The translations under genes were made by a program, and so were the position numbers. Shown here one piece after another: positions 5,450-63,237 of a stretch of 64,000 nucleotides of DNA (position 1 is its first letter; each line of letters begins with the position of its first letter). The stretch spans positions 1 to 64,000 of the forward strand of contig JASHOQ010000068.1 of the NCBI GenBank assembly GCA_030041045.1, in the 5' to 3' direction. A model generated the notes under the pieces. It searched no databases and was not told the DNA's origin. It was given only the letters and a program-made list of their open reading frames with translations. This stretch comes from Acidobacteriaceae bacterium. Its GTDB lineage: Bacteria > Acidobacteriota > Terriglobia > Terriglobales > Acidobacteriaceae.

Positions 5450-5693
5450 CGACTTCGGGGGAAGGCCGATGCGGGCAATCGACCTGCGAGTTCCGTACCT
5501 CCACCTTCACGGATGCGCCCTCAATCAGTGAGGTTGCGCCCGCATCCCCTTGCGCACTTCGAGTTTGTCCCGCATTTCGCCGCTTTTTGTGAGAGCGAAC
5601 AAGCCTTCAATCGGCGCGAAAATTCCCACGCGTTTTCGCCGCCTTTCCCCCCGCACCAACGCCTCCCCGCTCCTGTACACTGGTTCCGCTAGA

Positions 5694-5804
5694 GCGATTC
5701 CTGAGGTGCTGCGTCCTGAAGCCGACAGTCTCAAGTCGACGCGACCAGCAGGGAGTCGTCGACCTGGCACCGGCGCTCGAAGAGCACCGTTACTCAGGAA
5801 TCGC
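5694..5804 (+). ncRNA. structured repeat element copy A (family of three in this window)
   Basis: Perfect 12-bp terminal inverted repeat GCGATTCCTGAG/CTCAGGAATCGC enclosing a GTCGACGCGACCAGCAGGGAGTCGTCGACCT core shared with copy B. Confidence 0.65.
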
Positions 5805-5807
5805 CGT

Positions 5808-6146
5808 ATGAGCTGTATCTTCTGCAAAATCGCCGCGGGCGAGATTCCTTCCACCGCTGTTCATGAGGACGCGCGCATCTACGCCTTCGCCGACGTCAAT
5901 CCGAGGGCGCCGGTCCACATCCTCATCGTGCCCCGCGAGCACATCGGCTCCCTGAGCGAAGCCGGCGCCCACCACGGCGATCTGCTCGGCCATCTCCTGT
6001 GGACGGCTGCGGAGATTGCCCGCGAGAAAGGTCTCGGCAAGGGCTACCGCGTGGTTATCAACTCCGGACCTGACGGCGGCCAAACCGTGGATCACTTGCA
6101 TCTGCATCTGTTTGGCGGGCGGCAAATGACGTGGCCTCCGGGCTAG
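5808..6146 (+). CDS. HIT family protein
   Basis: MSCIFCKIAAGEIPSTAVHEDARIYAFADVNPRAPVHILIVPREHI...QTVDHLHLHLFGGRQMTWPPG; HxHxH motif. Confidence 0.93.
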   Translation: MSCIFCKIAAGEIPSTAVHEDARIYAFADVNPRAPVHILIVPREHIGSLSEAGAHHGDLLGHLLWTAAEIAREKGLGKGYRVVINSGPDGGQTVDHLHLHLFGGRQMTWPPG

Positions 6147-23265: not shown

Positions 23266-23280
23266 AAGCATTGTCCTTAC

Positions 23281-23393
23281 AGCGGTCTCACAGTTGCTGT
23301 ATCCCGAAGCCGCAGATGCTAAGTGGCTTTTTCACCAAGAAAAAGCCACCTTCCGCAACTGTGACATATGGCTACATGTACTGTGGAACCGCT
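23281..23393. ncRNA. structured repeat element copy C (diverged)
   Basis: gttgctgtatcccgaagccgcagatgctaag aligns with copies A and B; ends AGCGGTCTCACAG/CTGTGGAACCGCT near-complementary; internal 11-bp hairpin GTGGCTTTTTC/GAAAAAGCCAC. Confidence 0.55.
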
Positions 23394-24221
23394 CTAGTCC
23401 ACTCGGATGTGATTCGCCCACTGGGTCTTGTGCGCCGAGTAGGTGGTCGCATCCACTCCGGAGAAGGCGCGGAACTCGTTGGCAAAGTGCGACTGATCGT
23501 AGAACCCGCAATCGAGCGCCAGCTCCGCCCAGCGCACATCTGCACCCGCGTGCAGCAGCCGCACCGCCCGCTGGAAGCGCTGGATCCGGCACCACACCTT
23601 GGGCGAGTGACCCACTTCTTCGCGAAACACCTGCGAGAACCGCCGTTCGCTCCATCCCGTGCTCCGGGCTACCGCGCGCACAGTGGTCAGCGCCGGTGCC
23701 CGTCCGAACCGGTCCAGCGCGTAGCGCACCACCTCCGCCTGCTCCACGCGCCGCCTGTCCGCGCGCGCCTTCCAGCGTTCCAGCAGAAACACCTCCAGGC
23801 ACGCGAACCGCTTCTCCAGGTTCGCTGTTGCACGCAACCCGTCCCGGAGCGCCCGCGTTTGCGCGCCCCACGCGCACTCCAAGTCGATGCTGCGGTTGCT
23901 GAACAGGTCTACTCGATCGCCGGCAAACAGCGCAAACCCGTCGGGCTCGAAGATCACCCCCATCAGGTCCGCCATGTCCGCGCTGGAGATGATCTCGTAC
24001 ACGCTGCGCCCACCAACCACAATTGCGGGCGCCACGGGCACGTCCGGTCCGCAGGCCGGGCAGTCGCACAATTGGTCCCGCTCCAGGTTCAGGATCAACT
24101 GGACGCACCCGTTGGGCAGGATGCGCTCGCGCCGGTGCTCGATCGCCGGCGCGCGCGTCAGCCACAGCATGCGCACAAACCGGTCCAGCGGTGCCGCGGG
24201 CCTGCGTTCGAGATACAGCAC
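23394..24221 (-). CDS. AraC family transcriptional regulator
   Basis: C-terminal double HTH TVRAVARSTGWSERRFSQVFREEVGHSPKVWCRIQRFQRAVRLL...ELALDCGFYDQSHFANEFRAFSG. Confidence 0.93.
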   Translation of the reverse strand: MLYLERRPAAPLDRFVRMLWLTRAPAIEHRRERILPNGCVQLILNLERDQLCDCPACGPDVPVAPAIVVGGRSVYEIISSADMADLMGVIFEPDGFALFAGDRVDLFSNRSIDLECAWGAQTRALRDGLRATANLEKRFACLEVFLLERWKARADRRRVEQAEVVRYALDRFGRAPALTTVRAVARSTGWSERRFSQVFREEVGHSPKVWCRIQRFQRAVRLLHAGADVRWAELALDCGFYDQSHFANEFRAFSGVDATTYSAHKTQWANHIRVD

Positions 24222-50273: not shown

Positions 50274-53200
50274 ATGCTGCGCCGCGCCCTTGTTGCCGCT
50301 TTGCCTCCCGTGTCTCTAGCCGCCGCATTCGTTCTCGCCTGTCTTTTCCTTCTTTCTGCCGCCCGCGCGCAGGCGCCTGTCGCTTTGCCGTACACTATGA
50401 CCACCGTGGGCGGCCTCGCGCCCATGTCCTCGACCGCCGGCACGGCTTGCCCCAATCTGCCTGCAGGCCAGGTCTCCACGGACGCCTTCGGCGACGGCTG
50501 CCTTGCGGTCAACGGCATCTTCGGTGCCGCCGGCCGGGGCGGCGTGGTGGCCGACGCCTATGGCGACATCTTTATCGCGGACGACGTTGACGACGTGATC
50601 CACATGATCAATCCCTCCTCCGGCATCATGACGCGGCTGGCGGGAGCAGGCTCCGTCTGCTCCACCAAGCTCGATGGCTCGGGCGATGGCTGCATTGCCG
50701 CCACGCAGACCTCCGTCAGTAGCCAGCGCGGCATCGGCGTGGATCAATGGGGCAACGTCTTTTTGCCCGGCTACGGCGACCACATCGCCCACATCATCTG
50801 CCGCGCCGCCTCGCCCCTGTGCACGCCCGCGCAGGTGGGCACCCTCGAGGCCGTCGCCGGCTGCGTCACCAACACCGGCACCAACGGCACCACCGGCACC
50901 GGCCTCGACAACACCATCGCCCTCACGCTCAACGCCGGCACCTGCTCCACGTCGCTGGGCGAAATCAACACCCCGCGCGGCATCACCGCCGACCTTTACG
51001 GCAACGTCTACATCGCCGAAACGGCAACCTTCCGTTTCCGCGTGGTCCTGGGTCCGGAGACTTCTCCTTACTTCACGGGAACCAATCCGCTGTGGACCGC
51101 GCTCGCGGTGCACTACCCCTCGCTGACGCAGGGCTACGCCTATACCGTGGTCGATATCGGCGGCGACACCAGCGCCACTACTGCCGGCAACTCCTGCTCG
51201 GAGACGACAAACGGCGTGGTTTATAGCGGCACCGCGCTCGACAAGTTCGGCGATGGCTGCCCGCTCGACTTCAGCTCAGTAAGCACCAGCTCCAGCAGCT
51301 ACGTGCAGGGCGTGGCTACCGACGGCGCCGGCAATCTCGTCTTCACCGACCCCGGCAACGGCCGCCTGCGCGTCTTCTTCGTGAGCGGCGCGGGCACGGT
51401 GGGCGCGGCCATGGCCGCGGCCATCACCGCCAACAACCCCACCATCGCCACGCCGCAGCCCGGATTTGTTTACTCGCTCGCCGGCGGCGGTACCACTTCG
51501 ATCTCCGGCACGCCCACGCTCGGCTCGGCGACCAGCGGAATCGACTCCTCCATCTTCAAAGTCGCCGTCAGCCCGCAAGGCAACATCTTTGTCGGCGACA
51601 ACAGCAAGGTCGAGTTCTTCGACATCAATACCGGCTACATCCGCGTTCTCTTTTCCGCCGCCTCTTCGAACGTGACCACGGGCAGCTTCTGCAGCGGTTC
51701 TTCGGGACAGACTTCACTCAGCGCTTACAGCGACGGCTGCCCCGCCTCGAAATCCCTCTTCACCAACTCGAACGGCCTTGGCCTCGCCGTCGACGGCCAG
51801 GGCAGCCTCTATCTCTACGACGCCTCCAGCAACACCTCCGGCATGCTGGTGCGCAAAGTCCTCGCGCAGGGACTCGCCGAGCAGACGCTCACCGTTCCGC
51901 TCACGCAGACCTTCGATCTCCATCTCCCTGAATCGGCCTCCGCATCGCCCTCGGGCGCAACGGCCACGCTGGCCTCCACGCCTGACATCAGCGCCGGCGC
52001 ACCCACCTGCGCGCAAAACGCCGATGACTCCGTCGATTGCACCGTCGCCGTCACCGCCACGCCTTCGGCCGCCGGCCTGCGCTCCGCGGCGCTGACCATT
52101 ACGCTGCCTTCGGGTTCGTGGGTGAATCCTCTCGCCGACATCGCCCTCGGTGGAATTGTCTCGGGTTCGATCCTCACGGTAGATGACGCGGCCACCACGG
52201 TCTCCGGCGTCACCACACCGCTTGCGCCCTCGACCAAATCGGTATTCAGTTCCATCGCGCCCGCGGGCGTAGCGCTCGATGGCGCCGGCAACGCGTACGT
52301 AATGGATTTGAATTCCGGCTCGATCCTGGAATCTGTCGCCGGCGCCTCTGGCGTGGCCATCTCCTCCTCGCTGCCTTCGAATCCCGGACAGATCGCCGTC
52401 GACCAGCAGGGCGATGTCTTCGCCGTCGGCAGCGGCACGCCGGAGATTGAAGAGCTCGCCGTCACCGGCGCACCGGCTTCCGCCGGATCTCCTTCGACGT
52501 TCGCAGCAACCTCCATCGTCTACACGCCCGCGAACAGCGGCACGCCCACGCCCCAGGCAGCCGCCGTCGATAAGGCCGGCAATCTCTTCGTCGCCGACAA
52601 TCAGGGCTCGCCCGCAGACAACGCTGTCTACCGGCTCACGCTCGAAGCCGACCCTGCGAGCCGGCAGACCGAAATCGCCTCCGGCCTCTCCAATCCCGTC
52701 TCGCTCGCCGTCGATTCGCTCGGCAACGTCTATGTCGCCGACAAGGGCGCCGACGCCGTCCTCAAGCTCACCCCCGGCGCCAATGGCGCCTACACGCAGT
52801 CCACGCTACTCACCGGCGTGACGCCCGTCGCCGTCGCCGCCGATCCTGCGGGCGATGTCTATGTGCAGGACGAAAACAGCTCCTCGGTTCTCGAAGTGCC
52901 CGTGAGCGGCCCGGCGGAAATCAGCGTCTACCCCGGCCTCGTCGCGCCCACCGGACTCGCCGTCGACGGCAAAGGCGATGTCTTCAGCGCGGACTCGAAG
53001 AACACGTCGATCACGGAGATCATCCGCAACGCCGTCGCCTATACCTTCCCCAATGAGACCACCACCCTGAGCGGCGCACTCACCAATGGCGGAAATCTTG
53101 TGGCTACGCCCGAAAACACCAACACCTCCAGCTTCACGCTCGGCGCGGGCGCATCCAACGGCTGCATGTTCTCCGGCTCAACCACCGCCGGCGAGGCCTG

Positions 53201-56200
53201 CACCTTCACCGCATCGCTCGACTACGGCACCGGCAGCGCCACCGACGTGCTCTCTTTCGTGCCCACACCCGCCGCAGCCACACTCGGCGCGCTCACGCTC
53301 TCCGGCACGCTCACACAGATCGCCACCACCACCACCATCTCTGGTCCGCTGCCTGCGAATCCCACCACCAGCACCGGCGCCACCTTCACCGTCACCGTTA
53401 CACCGGCCTCGGGAACCAACGCGCCCTCAGGCACGGTCACCGTCACCGTCGCGGAAGGCGGGTCGACAGTTCAGACGTATACCCCCGCTCTGAGCGCCAG
53501 CGGCTCGAACGGCGTGGCCACCGTCGACGTCACCGGCCTCGCCGCCGGCTCCTTCACCATTGCCGCGAGTTACGCCACGGCTTCCAACGCCACCTTCAGC
53601 GGCTCCAGCTCCGCCTCTACGCCGTTCACGCTCTCGCTGCCCACGGCGCCCACCACCATCACGCTGCATGTGAACAATCCCAGCATCACGTATGGGGGCA
53701 CGCTTACCGGCAGCGTGACCATCGCGCCGCAGTCGGGCACAGGCACGCCCACCGGCACGGTCACGCTCTACTCCGGGACCACGCCTCTCGGCTCTTGTAC
53801 GCTCTCCGGGGGCGCCTGCACGTTCTCGGTCACTCCGCCTGCGGGCTTCCAGTCCATCACCGCGAGCTATAGCGGAGACAGCACTTTTTCGGCCGGCATC
53901 TCCTCCGGCGTTTCCATCAACGAGGCCCGCGCCCTGCTCGACGTGACCGCCGATAGCTATACCATCACCATCGGCGCGGCTCTGCCTGCGTACTCCTATA
54001 CTGTCACCGGCTTCGTCAACGGCGACACCCAGGCGAGCGCCCTCACCGGCGCGCCTTCCATTAGCGGCAGCGCGGCCAACTCGAACACCGCAGGCACCTA
54101 CCCGATCTCCATCACCACCGGCACCCTCGCGGCCGCCAATTACAACTTCACCTTCACCGGCGGCTATCTGCGCATCGTGCCCGCCGTGCAGGCTGCGCCC
54201 GTCGCAACCGGCGATTCCCGCACGGTCACCGAGCCCGCATTCCCCGCCGTATGCCAGCAGTTGACCGCCGCCATCACCATGGTCAACAACGACATTCCCA
54301 CCTCGGTGGACGCGACCGTCACCAACCCCGACGGCGCGCGCATCCAGTCCGCGCTCAACGCCTGCGCCGGCACGGGTGAGGCGGTCGAGCTCTCCGTCGA
54401 CGGCATGGGCGACGACGCTTTCCTCAGCGGTCCGCTCTCGATGCCCTCGAACGTGACCCTGCTCGTCGATCCCGGCGTGGTTCTCTTCTTCTCGCGCAAC
54501 GTGCAGGACTACGACACCACCCCCGGCACGCACACTTGCGGCACGGTAAATAATGACACCGCCACGGCCTCCTGCCTGGCCCTCATCGACATCCCGGGCA
54601 CTTCATCGAACGTGGGCATCATGGGCTACGGCAAGCTCGACGGCCGCGGCGGCGACACGCTCCTCAATGCCTTCCCCGCGTCGTTTGCCGGGCAGAGCTG
54701 GTGGGGACTTTCGTCGATAGCCAACAGCGGCGGCAATCAACAGAACCCGCGCTTCATCCAGATGGACACGGGCGCGAGCAACATCACCCTTTACAAGATC
54801 ACCATTCGCAACTCGCCGCTCTTCCACGTCTCCACCACCGGCGCCGTGTCCAACTTCACCGCGTGGGACATCAAGATCGTCACGCCCACCACGTCGCGCA
54901 ACACCGACGGCATCGATCCAGGCAACGCGACCAACTTCACCATCACCCGCTCGTGGATTTCCGATGGCGACGACAACGTGGCCGTAGGCGGCGCCAACAC
55001 CGCGCCGGCAGCGAACATCTCCGTCACCAACGATCATTTCTTCGCCGGCCACGGCGAATCCATCGGCAGCTACACCGAAGCCGGCGTGAGCAACATTCTC
55101 TTCGACGGCAACATGCTTTGGGGCAACGAGAGTGTCGACTCGAACTCCACCGGCATCCGCATCAAGTCCGCCAACGATCGCGGCGGCCTGGTCTCCGGCA
55201 TCCAGTACTCGAACTCCTGCTTCCAGGACCACAACACCGAAGTCCAGTTCACGCCGCTCTACAACACCAACACCGGCACGCTTACGCCGAACTACCAGAA
55301 CATCCTCATGCAGAACCTCACCTTCCTGACGGCGGGGTCGGTGCAATTTACGGGAGCGGACAATCCCACCACCAACCAGATCAATCCGCTCCTGGTCACG
55401 CTCGATAACGTGAACTTCGATTCGCTCTCCGCTTCTAATTTTGTTACCACCGGCGACGAAGGCACGGAGACGAACGCCGAGCTCACCTACGGTCCCGGCG
55501 ATGTCAGCTCCAACTTCATCAGCGGCTGGGCTACATTTGCCGGCTCCAATGGCGACACGGTCACCAACAACATCACCGCCTCCACGCTCTTCCCGCCGGA
55601 GTGCACCTTCACCCAGATTGCTCCGGAGCTCACCGGGCCCGCGGGCGAGCCGCAGACCATCCTTGAAGGCGACAACGCCACTGCAGTCATCATCCTTACG
55701 CCCGCCGTGGGCGGCGCCGCCTATCCGACGGGCACCGTCACGCTCACCGACGCGCTCACCGGCGACTCCACCACGGTCACCCTTCCCGGCAATACCGACA
55801 CGCTCTTCGTTCCCCAGAGCGGTCTCTCCGTGGGTACGCATACTTTCACCGACACTTACTCCGGCGACTCAAACTACGTGCCGGCCACAGGTGAGCCTTA
55901 TTCAACCGCCGGGCCCTACATCGTGACCGTCAACGCCGGCAGCCTCACCGCGACCAGCACGTCGCTTTCCGGCGTTCCTTCCTCGATCAGCTTCGGCTCC
56001 TCGTTCACAGCAACGGCCACGGTCTCCGGCAGCAATCCCACCGGCACAGTTGAGTTCGTCGTGAACGGTTCCGTCTACTCGACAGCTGGCGTGGTTTCCG
56101 GCGCAGCTTCGGCCTCGATTAGCCTTCCCTACAGCACTAGCGCTTACACCATCTCTGCCATCTATAGCGGCGACACCGCCAACGCCGGCTCCACTTCTGC

Positions 56201-59200
56201 CACCGCGACCATCCTGGTCGAAGCCGCGGCCACCACCACTGCGCTTTCGGCCAGCGCAACCGCCACCACGCTCGGCCATCCGGTCACGCTTACAGCCACC
56301 GTGAACTCCGCCGCGGGCACGCCCACCGGGACGGTCACCTTCACCTACACCACCGCGAACAACAGCACGCCGGTTCTCATCGCCACCGGCTCGCTTGCAA
56401 ACGGCGCCGCCACGGCCGCGGCCGATCTGCCCACGGGAACCGACGCCGTCACGGCCTCCTACGCCGCCAGCGGCAGCTTCGCGGGCTCTGTCTCGACACC
56501 CATGAACATCACCGTGAATCCGCCGGCCATCATCCCGCTCTCCACAAGCCCGATTCCGCTGGCTTACACCATGACCACGCTCGCCGGCGGCGCCGCCGCG
56601 AACTGCGCCACGGCCACAGACACCTTCGGCAACGGCTGCCCGGCTACGCAGATTGTCTTTACCGGCGGCAGCTCCGTTGACCTGCGCAGCGTAGACGCCG
56701 ATCCCTTCGGAAACGTCTACTTCACTGACGCCGTCGCCAGCCAGGTGCGCCGCATTGCACCCAACGGCATCGTCACCAACTTCGCCGGCTTCGTCTCTGG
56801 AACCGCCTGCCTGCCCAGCGCCGCGCAGGGTTGCGTGCCCAATACGGTGAAGCTCAACAAGCCGCGCGGCGTTTCGACGGATGCGTTGGGCAACGTCTAC
56901 ATTGCGGGTTACGACGATAACAAGGCCTACATGGTCAGCGTCTCCACCGGTCTGCTCACCCTCGTGGCCGGAACCGGCACCGCGGGCACGCCGACGGCGA
57001 GCAACGGCGATGGCGGTCCCGCTTCAGCCGCCAATCTCGATGGGCCGCGCGGCATCTGGGCTGATTCGCTCGGCGACATCTACATCGCCGACACCACCGA
57101 CAACAAGATTCGCGAGGTGAACACCACCGGCACCATTCAGACCATCGCCGGCACCGGCGCCGCGGCCTCCAATGGCGATGGCGCTCCCGCAACCGCGGCG
57201 GCCATCGACAACCCGCAGGGCGTGATGACAGACACCAACCTCAACGTCTACATCGCCGACTCGAGCGGCGACAAAGTGCGCGTGGTCTGCGTCACCTGCG
57301 GAACCAATTCGCCATTGGATCACCTGCTCGCACAGCTAGGCATTACCTCGCCCGTCAATGGCGACATCTACACCATTGCCGGCGGCGGCTCGTCCAGTTA
57401 CTCCGGTCCCTTCCCGGTGCTCGCAACCAGCGTCGGCATGAGCCCGCAGAAGCTGGGCATTGACTTGAGCGGCAACATTTATATCTCCGACGGCGACGGT
57501 GCTGCCTGGTTCCTCGATGCGCGCACCGCCTTCATCCGTCCCATCGCCGGCAAGACCACCACCAACTGCCCCACAGAAACCGACAGCTTCGGCGACGGCT
57601 GCCCGGCTACGCAAGCCATCGTCGGCGATGGCGGCAACGGCATCGGCGTGGGCACGGATTCGCTGGGCAACGTCTACGTCTCGGACACGCTGAACGCGCG
57701 CATCCGCAAGATCACCACTAACCTCAATTCGCCGGCAACGTCGACTGGATCGACAATCACGCAGCCCGTAGAGCTCCACTTCATCGCCGGCGACTCGCTC
57801 GCTTCCACGAATGGCGTCGCGTACTCGTCGCCCGAGTGGTTGCTCACTGCTTCCTCCTGCACCACGAACACCGACACGACTATGGACTGCCTGCTCTCCT
57901 CGAGCTTCACGCCCTCCGTCCCCGGCGCGCGCTCCACGCCGCTCGCGGTGAACAGCTCGCTCGGCAACACGGCCACGCTTGCGCTTACCGGCCTCGGCCT
58001 CGGCGCGGGCGCCACGCTCGACCCCGCCACGCGCAGCACCTTCGGTTCCGGCCTCGGCGTCACCGGCCTGGCCACGGACAACGCCGGCAACGTCTACGTG
58101 TCGGATTCCAATAGCAAGCAGCTCTTCCGCTTCGCGCCGTCTGCCGTTGCACAGGGCGCAGGCGCAACCGGTACTGCGCTCGTCACACTCGTTGCTCCGG
58201 GCGCGGTCGCCGTGGATGAGCGCGGCTACACCTATGTGGCCGATACCTCCGCCGGCACCGTCACCCAGATCGCGCCCTCCGGCGCAACTGTGGCGCTGCC
58301 ATTCACCTTCACCACCCCCGCCGGCCTCGCCGTCGACGCGCTCAACAACCTCTACGTCTCCGACTCCTCCGCGCAGGCCGTCTACCAGATCAGCCCCTTC
58401 ACCAACGCCGAGCAGACGCTCGCCCTGGGCGCGCTGGTCTCGCCCGAAGGCCTCGCCATCGACCCATCCGGCAATCTGCTTGTCGCCGATCCCGGAGCGC
58501 CCGCCATCTACCGCTTCTATCTCGAATCGGCCACGCGCACTACGGTCACCACGCCCGCCGTCGCGCCGTCTCTTGCGTTGAATGACGCCGCGGGCAATCT
58601 GCTCATCGCCGACACGGCTTCCATCCTGGCCGTTCCCGCGAGCAGCAACAGCTCACCGTTTACCATTGCTTCCCTCACGCCCGCCGCGCTCGCGGTCGAC
58701 TCCGCCGGCAATCTTTACACCGGCGCCTCCGGCGGCGTACTCAAGCTCACGCGCACGCAGGGCTATGTGCAATTCGCCGGAGCCTCCGCGCCGCCCGCCG
58801 CCGTCAACCTGCTCGAGTCCGGCAATCAGGCTTACGCCGAGACCTCGATCAGCCAGACCGACACCTCCGATTACTCTCTCGCGCCAACGGCTTCCACCGA
58901 TTGCGCTCTCAGCAGCGCGGGCTCGGGCACGCTTGCCATTGGCGGCGTCTGCGCCTTCACCGCGAGTTACACGCCCACGACGTTCCTCACCACCACGGAC
59001 ACGGCCACCTTCAACGGCAACCTCGCTAATGCCGCACTGTCCACTCCGGCAGCCGTCCAGCTCACGCTCACCGGCCCAGCCACGCCGCCCGCCTCCACCA
59101 TCACGCTCGGCGCCTTCTCACCCGCCGCGCCCATCTACGGCCAGACAGTCACCCTCAGCGCCACCGTCTCCGGCGCAAGCGTCACGCCTGCTGGCACGGT

Positions 59201-60737
59201 CGTCTTCACGGTCGACAGCACCACGTACTCGGCCACATTGACCAACGGCGCCGCCTCCGTCCAGGTCAGCGGCCTCAAGGCCGGCGCGCACACCGTCTCC
59301 GCTGCTTACACCAGCACCAACGGCTACACTGCTTCGTCCTCGTCCACGGCCACGCTCACAGTTGGGCAGGCCACGCCGGTCATCGCCTGGCCCGCACCCA
59401 ACCCCATCACCTATGGGACCGCGCTGAGCGCAACCCAGCTTGACGCGACCGCCTCGGTGCCCGGCACATTCGCCTACAACCCCGCCGCGGGCATCGTGCT
59501 CAACGCAGGCACGCAGACGCTCACGCTCACCTTCACGCCGACCGACACCACCGATTACACCTCCGTGATGCAGTCGGTCACGCTGGTCGTGAACCAGGCC
59601 GTCAGCAACGTTGCGCTCACGGCGAATCCCAATCCTGCCGCGCAAGGAATGACGGAGACGCTCACTGCTACCGTCACCGGCGCGGGCACGCTCACCGGCT
59701 CGGTGGTCTTCACCTCCGGCTCAACCACGCTCTGCACCACGGCGCTCACCGCCAGCGACGTGGCCTCGTGCAGCTTTGTCCCGTCGGCCTCGGGCACGCT
59801 CACAATTACGGCCACCTACGCGGGCGATGCCAACCACTCCGGCTCCTCGGCCAGCCTCTCGCTCAACGTCTATGACACGGCCATCACCGAAACGTTCTCG
59901 AGCACGCAGCTCACTTATCCGGGGGCAACCAATGTCACCGTCTGCGTCGCCGGGGCTACCAAGGCCACGCCCACCGGCACGGTCAAAATTGAAGACGGCA
60001 CCACGGTCCTCACCACGCTGACTCTCGGCAGCAATGGCTGCGCTTACTGGTACATCTCGCCCGGCTTGAACGCGGGCACGCACTCCATCTCCGCCGTCTA
60101 CTCCGGCGACAAAAACAACTCCGCCGGCGCCTCCGCGCCCACTATCCTCACCGTCAGCCCGGTTCCGGTGACCATGTCCGTCTCCTGCTGGAACGCGAGC
60201 TTCGCCTACGGCGCCAACTACCAGTGCGACGTGAACGTAAGCTCGGCCGCCGGCTCGGCGCAGGGCTCCATCACCTATAGCTACGACGGCGGCGCACCCG
60301 TCTCCGTGCCTCTGAGCAGTGGCAGCGCGACATTCACTATCACCAAACCCGTCGTCGGCAACCAGTCGGTCGTTATCGCGTATCCGCAACAGACCAACTA
60401 CGCCGCCGCTACGCCGCAGACCGAGAACTTTACCGTCACGGCCGCGCCGGTTACCGTCTCGCTCACGCCTTCCACCTACTACACCACGGCCGGCACCACC
60501 GTCACCTTCTCCGCCGCGGTGACTTCGTGGAGTGCCGGCGCGCCCGACGATAACGGTTCTGTCACCTTCTCGCTCGGCTCAACGCTGCTCGCCACCGTGC
60601 CCGTCAATGCCAGCGGCCAGGCCAGCTACGCCACGTCCTCGCTGCCCGTCGGTAGTGACACCGTCACCGCAACTTACTCTGGCGGTGCCAACTACGGGAC
60701 CGGCTCCGCCAGCGCGACCATCACCATCGTGAAGTAG
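50274..60737 (+). CDS. giant secreted multidomain protein: NHL propeller repeats, Ig-like repeats, GH28 polygalacturonase domain, second NHL/Ig-like block
   Basis: Signal peptide; repeated GNVYVAD/GNLFVAD NHL blades; repeated Ig-like blades (GTPTGTVTLYSGTTPLGSCTLSGGACTFSVTPPAGFQSITASYSGDSTF); GH28 motifs in the centre. Confidence 0.9.
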   Translation: MLRRALVAALPPVSLAAAFVLACLFLLSAARAQAPVALPYTMTTVGGLAPMSSTAGTACPNLPAGQVSTDAFGDGCLAVNGIFGAAGRGGVVADAYGDIFIADDVDDVIHMINPSSGIMTRLAGAGSVCSTKLDGSGDGCIAATQTSVSSQRGIGVDQWGNVFLPGYGDHIAHIICRAASPLCTPAQVGTLEAVAGCVTNTGTNGTTGTGLDNTIALTLNAGTCSTSLGEINTPRGITADLYGNVYIAETATFRFRVVLGPETSPYFTGTNPLWTALAVHYPSLTQGYAYTVVDIGGDTSATTAGNSCSETTNGVVYSGTALDKFGDGCPLDFSSVSTSSSSYVQGVATDGAGNLVFTDPGNGRLRVFFVSGAGTVGAAMAAAITANNPTIATPQPGFVYSLAGGGTTSISGTPTLGSATSGIDSSIFKVAVSPQGNIFVGDNSKVEFFDINTGYIRVLFSAASSNVTTGSFCSGSSGQTSLSAYSDGCPASKSLFTNSNGLGLAVDGQGSLYLYDASSNTSGMLVRKVLAQGLAEQTLTVPLTQTFDLHLPESASASPSGATATLASTPDISAGAPTCAQNADDSVDCTVAVTATPSAAGLRSAALTITLPSGSWVNPLADIALGGIVSGSILTVDDAATTVSGVTTPLAPSTKSVFSSIAPAGVALDGAGNAYVMDLNSGSILESVAGASGVAISSSLPSNPGQIAVDQQGDVFAVGSGTPEIEELAVTGAPASAGSPSTFAATSIVYTPANSGTPTPQAAAVDKAGNLFVADNQGSPADNAVYRLTLEADPASRQTEIASGLSNPVSLAVDSLGNVYVADKGADAVLKLTPGANGAYTQSTLLTGVTPVAVAADPAGDVYVQDENSSSVLEVPVSGPAEISVYPGLVAPTGLAVDGKGDVFSADSKNTSITEIIRNAVAYTFPNETTTLSGALTNGGNLVATPENTNTSSFTLGAGASNGCMFSGSTTAGEACTFTASLDYGTGSATDVLSFVPTPAAATLGALTLSGTLTQIATTTTISGPLPANPTTSTGATFTVTVTPASGTNAPSGTVTVTVAEGGSTVQTYTPALSASGSNGVATVDVTGLAAGSFTIAASYATASNATFSGSSSASTPFTLSLPTAPTTITLHVNNPSITYGGTLTGSVTIAPQSGTGTPTGTVTLYSGTTPLGSCTLSGGACTFSVTPPAGFQSITASYSGDSTFSAGISSGVSINEARALLDVTADSYTITIGAALPAYSYTVTGFVNGDTQASALTGAPSISGSAANSNTAGTYPISITTGTLAAANYNFTFTGGYLRIVPAVQAAPVATGDSRTVTEPAFPAVCQQLTAAITMVNNDIPTSVDATVTNPDGARIQSALNACAGTGEAVELSVDGMGDDAFLSGPLSMPSNVTLLVDPGVVLFFSRNVQDYDTTPGTHTCGTVNNDTATASCLALIDIPGTSSNVGIMGYGKLDGRGGDTLLNAFPASFAGQSWWGLSSIANSGGNQQNPRFIQMDTGASNITLYKITIRNSPLFHVSTTGAVSNFTAWDIKIVTPTTSRNTDGIDPGNATNFTITRSWISDGDDNVAVGGANTAPAANISVTNDHFFAGHGESIGSYTEAGVSNILFDGNMLWGNESVDSNSTGIRIKSANDRGGLVSGIQYSNSCFQDHNTEVQFTPLYNTNTGTLTPNYQNILMQNLTFLTAGSVQFTGADNPTTNQINPLLVTLDNVNFDSLSASNFVTTGDEGTETNAELTYGPGDVSSNFISGWATFAGSNGDTVTNNITASTLFPPECTFTQIAPELTGPAGEPQTILEGDNATAVIILTPAVGGAAYPTGTVTLTDALTGDSTTVTLPGNTDTLFVPQSGLSVGTHTFTDTYSGDSNYVPATGEPYSTAGPYIVTVNAGSLTATSTSLSGVPSSISFGSSFTATATVSGSNPTGTVEFVVNGSVYSTAGVVSGAASASISLPYSTSAYTISAIYSGDTANAGSTSATATILVEAAATTTALSASATATTLGHPVTLTATVNSAAGTPTGTVTFTYTTANNSTPVLIATGSLANGAATAAADLPTGTDAVTASYAASGSFAGSVSTPMNITVNPPAIIPLSTSPIPLAYTMTTLAGGAAANCATATDTFGNGCPATQIVFTGGSSVDLRSVDADPFGNVYFTDAVASQVRRIAPNGIVTNFAGFVSGTACLPSAAQGCVPNTVKLNKPRGVSTDALGNVYIAGYDDNKAYMVSVSTGLLTLVAGTGTAGTPTASNGDGGPASAANLDGPRGIWADSLGDIYIADTTDNKIREVNTTGTIQTIAGTGAAASNGDGAPATAAAIDNPQGVMTDTNLNVYIADSSGDKVRVVCVTCGTNSPLDHLLAQLGITSPVNGDIYTIAGGGSSSYSGPFPVLATSVGMSPQKLGIDLSGNIYISDGDGAAWFLDARTAFIRPIAGKTTTNCPTETDSFGDGCPATQAIVGDGGNGIGVGTDSLGNVYVSDTLNARIRKITTNLNSPATSTGSTITQPVELHFIAGDSLASTNGVAYSSPEWLLTASSCTTNTDTTMDCLLSSSFTPSVPGARSTPLAVNSSLGNTATLALTGLGLGAGATLDPATRSTFGSGLGVTGLATDNAGNVYVSDSNSKQLFRFAPSAVAQGAGATGTALVTLVAPGAVAVDERGYTYVADTSAGTVTQIAPSGATVALPFTFTTPAGLAVDALNNLYVSDSSAQAVYQISPFTNAEQTLALGALVSPEGLAIDPSGNLLVADPGAPAIYRFYLESATRTTVTTPAVAPSLALNDAAGNLLIADTASILAVPASSNSSPFTIASLTPAALAVDSAGNLYTGASGGVLKLTRTQGYVQFAGASAPPAAVNLLESGNQAYAETSISQTDTSDYSLAPTASTDCALSSAGSGTLAIGGVCAFTASYTPTTFLTTTDTATFNGNLANAALSTPAAVQLTLTGPATPPASTITLGAFSPAAPIYGQTVTLSATVSGASVTPAGTVVFTVDSTTYSATLTNGAASVQVSGLKAGAHTVSAAYTSTNGYTASSSSTATLTVGQATPVIAWPAPNPITYGTALSATQLDATASVPGTFAYNPAAGIVLNAGTQTLTLTFTPTDTTDYTSVMQSVTLVVNQAVSNVALTANPNPAAQGMTETLTATVTGAGTLTGSVVFTSGSTTLCTTALTASDVASCSFVPSASGTLTITATYAGDANHSGSSASLSLNVYDTAITETFSSTQLTYPGATNVTVCVAGATKATPTGTVKIEDGTTVLTTLTLGSNGCAYWYISPGLNAGTHSISAVYSGDKNNSAGASAPTILTVSPVPVTMSVSCWNASFAYGANYQCDVNVSSAAGSAQGSITYSYDGGAPVSVPLSSGSATFTITKPVVGNQSVVIAYPQQTNYAAATPQTENFTVTAAPVTVSLTPSTYYTTAGTTVTFSAAVTSWSAGAPDDNGSVTFSLGSTLLATVPVNASGQASYATSSLPVGSDTVTATYSGGANYGTGSASATITIVK
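54226..55600 (+). other. GH28 (polygalacturonase) domain within the giant CDS
   Basis: NTDGIDPGN, SDGDDNVAVGG, GHGESIGSYT and GIRIKSANDRGG: all four canonical GH28 active-site motifs in the correct order. Confidence 0.88.
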
Positions 60738-63047: not shown

Positions 63048-63118
63048 AACTCACGCGTTCATGAATCTGGGAAGGTGGCAGTTCTGCTCCTCGGGAGCGG
63101 TCACTGCCGGGCGCTAAA

Positions 63119-63237
63119 GCATTTTCTGAGTAGCTATATCCCGAAGACGGAAAGCAGAGTCGACGCGACCAACAGGGAGCGGCGACCTTGCGAAGGAACG
63201 AAGAGGACACAGTAACTCAGAAAATGCCGTAAAGGCA
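63119..63237 (+). ncRNA. structured repeat element copy B
   Basis: Perfect 12-bp terminal inverted repeat GCATTTTCTGAG/CTCAGAAAATGC enclosing a GTCGACGCGACCAACAGGGAGCGGCGACCT core shared with copy A. Confidence 0.65.

Follow-up and report, generated by a model that had tools for sequence, protein, structure and literature searches.

Described features of MITEs are TA ends, TIRs, a small size, and stable hairpins (PMC2229807). The ERIC or IRU sequences of enterobacteria are intergenic imperfect palindromes of approximately 100-130 bp with TA ends and a target duplication, while the Correia or NEMIS elements of Neisseria (107-155 bp) have TIRs and TA ends, occur in size variants that contain or lack an internal module, and give rise to stem-loop transcripts (PMC2229807). 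RUP of Streptococcus pneumoniae, which depends on IS630-Spn1, is non-autonomous and has TA ends; its mobilisation in trans by the transposase of the IS has been proposed (PMC2229807). In the IS427 group of the IS5 family, direct repeats of 2 bp are usual (PMC3281130). Three sequences (A, B, and C) in a window of 64,000 nucleotides from an Acidobacteriaceae bacterium are probably members of a non-autonomous, TA-inserting MITE superfamily of this family of bacteria that is mobilised in trans and whose arms covary through joint recognition of both ends. The features shared with MITEs are the short length, TIRs, TA on both sides together with an empty site, and the presence of multiple, partly recent copies. 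The elements are imperfect palindromes of approximately 115 bp, with inverted ends starting with NRGC and insertion at YTAR.

Copy A (115 bp, 5692-5806) has the arms GCGATTCCTGAG/CTCAGGAATCGC (5694-5705 and 5793-5804) and a central hairpin of the CTCCCTGNTGGTC type (5735-5763) with the conserved motif CTCCCTGNTGGTCGC on the minus strand. Copy B (113 bp, 63117-63229), of which identical copies exist elsewhere in the genome, has the same type of central hairpin between the arms GCATTTTCTGAG/CTCAGAAAATGC (63119-63131 and 63215-63227), which measure 13 bp when the next T-A pair is counted. Both are of the core-bearing type. Copy C (115 bp, 23280-23394) represents a second type with the central hairpin GTGGCTTTTTC...GAAAAAGCCAC (23323-23349), and the central hairpins are swappable between elements. 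It had been claimed in a first-pass annotation that A and B have perfect inverted ends, that every substitution in these ends affects both arms, that interior blocks are shared, and that C has the same 5' half and near-complementary ends, all of which is borne out by the sequence. The arms of A and B differ at three positions (G-C to A-T, A-T to T-A, and C-G to T-A), all of them compensated, and the 19-mer CGACGCGACCANCAGGGAG, common to A and B, has exactly two occurrences in the window, where shuffles predict 0.14. The coordinates needed correction: the last base of the right arm of B is 63227 instead of 63237, and the true limits of the copies are the flanking TA dinucleotides at 5690-5691 and 5807-5808 (A), 23278-23279 and 23395-23396 (C), and 63115-63116 and 63230-63231 (B). 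The annotation had not tied the elements to a named family, and comparison with the Rfam covariance models, Acido-1 and Acido-Lenti-1 included, likewise gave no match, neither at the gathering threshold for the window nor at E ≤ 1 for five element loci.

Nearly all copies in the genome have TA on both sides and unrelated flanks. The target consensus in relatives is YTA at the left and TAR at the right, which amounts to a palindromic preference for YTAR. Copy A adjoins the gene of a HIT-domain protein (5808-6146, plus strand; Pfam PF01230, with orthologues in congeners), the A of the right TA being the first base of the ATG. Of 12 congener orthologues, 11 lack the element, and in these a motif similar to TGTACACTG precedes the ATG by 8-10 bases, while the twelfth (L273) contains a different insertion in the gap between motif and ATG. 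Three orthologues read gCTATG, which is the sequence of the window minus the element and one TA; in the window, this site is interrupted by TA[115 bp]TA. This empty-site comparison marks the left TA of copy A as the probable target duplication; a TA duplication is indistinguishable from insertion 3' of TA by an element with its own terminal TA. Copies have also inserted into copies of C: B (L010, L042), C itself (L060), and B with a REP copy (L242), which makes at least three nested insertions plus a fourth, L242, obtained from a separate reading. C has five internal TA sites, of which CTAA alone fits YTAR, and all of these insertions are located there.

The TGTACACTG motif of the window (5674-5682, plus strand), conserved upstream of HIT genes and now split from the ATG by copy A, resembles an extended -10 box; a simple scan of the motif region revealed no sigma-70-type site. 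Its position and conservation suggest that it may be the promoter of the HIT gene, the mRNA of which would have been leaderless before the insertion. A leaderless promoter is also suggested for the HIT genes of the genus as a whole, in which a similar motif is found approximately 8-10 bases before the ATG (window 5674-5691; orthologues L274-L285). The right TA of copy C lies within the stop codon of an AraC-type ORF (23394-24221, minus strand), this stop codon being supplied by the element. A 3487-aa ORF elsewhere in the window (50274-60734) combines a family 28 glycosyl hydrolase domain with NHL/beta-propeller repeats and ten Ig-like stretches of the Big_3_5 type.

The genome of 5.23 Mb contains at least 41 sequence matches to A, at least 41 to B, and at least 60 to C, the latter figure including self-complementary ones. 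A search with a degenerate pattern for the ends, in which one mismatch was allowed, gave approximately 287 ends, against a single one in the reversed-pattern control. In the fetched loci, inverted TA-NRGC pairs show a spacing peak at 100-140 bp, and the unpaired ends are further elements of which the other end has diverged. The copies measure 113-115 bp between the two TA and are non-coding, with no transposase of their own. Among full-length copies with at least 95 % identity, 10 of 32 for B and 12 of 33 for C are identical to the consensus at different sites, which indicates recent amplification of both families. Coding DNA is avoided: 29 % of the copies lie within a spanning ORF of at least 200 aa, against 78 % of random positions. 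Several arm types exist side by side in this one genome, examples of which are, for the terminal 17 bp, TAAAGCATTTTCTGAGT and TAGAGCGGTTCCACAGT. In several B copies, a REP-like palindrome of approximately 38-43 bp (CCCCAGCAAGCGAGGAGCGCTTGCCGGGG...), bounded by a GACCAAC repeat, is present in the tip of the central hairpin (L237, L238, L239, L242, and L006 in the same genome; also L231, L233, and L234). Given its different sites, this composite seems to have moved.

A search of 85,488 species genomes with the central-hairpin pattern gave at least 105 stretches, and the matches listed were nearly all titled Acidobacteriaceae or Acidobacteria. A few actinobacterial pattern matches (Kitasatospora, Microbispora) without the element architecture were excluded from the set. 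BLAST matches to B were found in 21 of 201 sampled genomes of the family and the second type in 20 of 301 sampled genomes; elements of the latter type have NRGC ends and matching arms as in the core type, with a different central hairpin, GGTGGCTTTTTC...GAAAAAGCCAC. The central hairpins are conserved within each type, and among relatives there is hardly any variation in the NRGC ends or at one G-C pair within the arm. A plasmid search gave no match, and the single viral match to the central-hairpin pattern is located at 890-911 of viral contig L323 (IMGVR_UViG_3300037108_000196). No earlier description of the family was found in the open-access literature, ISfinder and subscription papers being outside the scope of this search; within the searchable literature and databases, this is an undescribed MITE superfamily of Acidobacteriaceae.

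The first-pass annotation had taken the covariation of the arms to suggest selection on RNA or hairpin DNA structure. Covariation was examined in 68 non-redundant core-bearing elements, cut out at fixed distances from the core and aligned on sequence alone, using an R-scape-like test written for this analysis (not R-scape itself) with a tree-based null that keeps the substitutions per branch. All ten predicted arm pairs were among the top 13 of 7,750 column pairs, and four of them, plus one off-register neighbour, scored above every null value. Strong covariation was confined to the arms. In a second alignment, of 61 elements, 94.5 % of the cells pair (93.7 % for arm cells), and the covariation score is 0.416, whereas shuffling yields 0.159 and sliding the partners no more than 0.168. 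The covariation is thus real and far above the phylogenetic null; selection on RNA is unsupported, and the copies are mobile elements inserting at TA. Selection on structure may still act on the DNA itself, by way of hairpin or cruciform recognition.

Matching arms are no proof of an RNA, since the inverted ends of mobile elements must match anyway. We propose joint recognition of both ends as the cause of the covariation: without it, an element would not move on. As the divergence between two elements grows, compensated differences per pair increase from 1.8 to 3.8 while one-arm differences stay at approximately 2, as expected for lineages that pass through symmetric arms, after which each copy decays. 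The same trend would also fit a stem that matters as structure, in which the whole element, as a hairpin or cruciform, is the enzyme substrate, the arms may take any sequence provided that they stay complementary, and the central hairpins are exchangeable. With 53 of 68 arm sequences (11-mers) being distinct in spite of the high pairing of arm cells, with several arm types in one genome, and with central hairpins kept within each type, this reading has points in its favour; we nevertheless regard it as rather unlikely, as the nearly fixed NRGC ends and inner G-C pair look like ends that are read as sequence, central hairpins interrupted by REP are still present at several sites, and the Y1 loci of the genome have different palindromes.

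An RNA stem is expected to favour G-U on one strand. The arm cells comprise 642 Watson-Crick pairs, 26 G-T, 26 A-C, and 44 other combinations, and as the two mismatches are equally frequent there is no RNA strand bias. A structured functional RNA spread by transposition, such as a cis-regulator or small RNA, would agree with the covarying stem, with the predicted folds of A, B, and C, which beat shuffles on both strands (z -3.2 to -6.6), and with the position of copy A, at a place where transcription could make it the leader of the HIT mRNA. The central hairpin also shows some compensatory changes (7 C-G to U-A at one pair); its variation is little, and this conservation of the core is partly imposed by the search pattern. 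In young copies, no constraint on the arms was seen, with similar per-site rates in arms and interior (B, 7 substitutions in 36 arm sites versus 32 in 81 interior sites; C, 12 in 36 versus 17 in 83), a comparison of low power. Together with the mismatch counts and the absence of an Rfam match, these data make a functional RNA very improbable. Template switching during replication of the quasipalindrome, by which one arm would be copied onto the other under little selection, is a known source of multi-base compensatory changes (PMC8794818) and agrees with the lack of an excess of G-T over A-C mismatches. As the main cause it is improbable, given that recent copies contain uncorrected one-arm changes and that strong covariation is restricted to the arms, but it can operate jointly with the MITE explanation.

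At the DDE_3, DDE_Tnp_1, PF13340, and Y1 loci of the genome and at the PF13340 loci of relatives, no autonomous element was found that shares the inner arms. This absence, together with a diversity of arms that is unusual for one MITE superfamily, counts against the MITE interpretation. In all fetched loci, TIR pairs more than 200 bp apart were nested or neighbouring copies, apparent chance pairs, or an IS427-type element, none of them recognisable as an autonomous carrier of the arms. The PF13340 and PF01609 loci of the genome and the PF13340 loci of relatives have only the outer TA-GRGC in common with the elements, and IS427-type elements of Acidobacteriaceae end in TA-GRGC and sit at CTAG, with inner terminal repeats that, in the loci examined, differ from the arms. 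IS5/IS427 as the partner is, on the basis of these ends, a lead and not a demonstration. An IS630/Tc1-mariner partner was rejected, as the single DDE_3 gene of the genome has unrelated ends (CTAGTGTTTTGTCC). At L079 and L091, two elements directly adjoin each other: one of the IS5/IS427 type, which has two overlapping frames and the TIR TAGAGCGTGTTTCA, and one that is IS630-like, with the TIR CTAGTGTTTTGTCC. A REP/RAYT-type element, inserted beside a tetranucleotide without duplication and mobilised by a tyrosine transposase of the Y1 type, would agree with the ten Y1 matches in the genome and with the TIR-flanked tyrosine transposases described in acidobacteria (PMC3733652). This explanation is largely refuted and has next to no probability: none of the Y1 genes carries the core, arms, or interior of the elements, the palindromes on either side of them are different, and the target preference (YTAR) is palindromic. 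The inverted repeats that flank the Y1 genes at L080 and L082-L089 are perfect or nearly so and belong to several unrelated types, an arrangement resembling REPtrons or TIRtrons.

In the MITE interpretation, a DDE-type transposase, for which the IS427 group of the IS5 family is the likeliest source, would act in trans, pair both ends, and insert the element at TA. Onward movement would need the joint recognition of both ends, so that one-arm mutants would be dead ends, while new subfamilies would be founded by symmetric arm changes; a single template switch from one arm to the other may be enough to produce such a change. Any hairpin transcript would be incidental and may influence an adjacent gene, copy A between the promoter-like motif and the HIT start codon being a case in point. 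The evolution of the arms in step may reflect paired-end recognition, template switching between arms, or hairpin recognition, and this large natural series of paired-arm changes could separate the three. More generally, strong covariation of a stem is usually accepted as proof of a structured RNA, yet inverted ends in mobile DNA can produce it as well. Simple tests discriminate between the two: the ratio of G-T to A-C mismatches and an empty site. In this host the elements are numerous, recent, and located at gene borders, such as the start of the HIT gene and the stop of the AraC-type ORF.

Among known systems, IS427-group members of Acidobacteriaceae resemble the elements in their TA-G(A/G)GC ends and location in CTAG but are approximately 770-900 bp long, contain a transposase, and have different inner terminal repeats. 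RUP is alike in being non-autonomous with TA ends; a partner IS has been proposed for it, whereas none was found for the acidobacterial elements, the only DDE_3 (IS630-like) gene having unrelated ends. REP elements and REPtrons are likewise short palindromic interspersed DNA, yet REPs measure 20-40 bp and carry GTAG or CGTC tags (PMC3733652), compared with approximately 115 bp, inverted ends, and TA flanks here. The Correia or NEMIS elements, similar in size, TIRs, and TA ends, differ in host phylum and sequence, and covarying arms are a feature of the acidobacterial elements. ERIC or IRU sequences are similar in length, palindromic nature, and TA ends, with no sequence relation seen; the acidobacterial elements stand apart in having arms that vary between subfamilies yet stay complementary, and two central hairpins that alternate.
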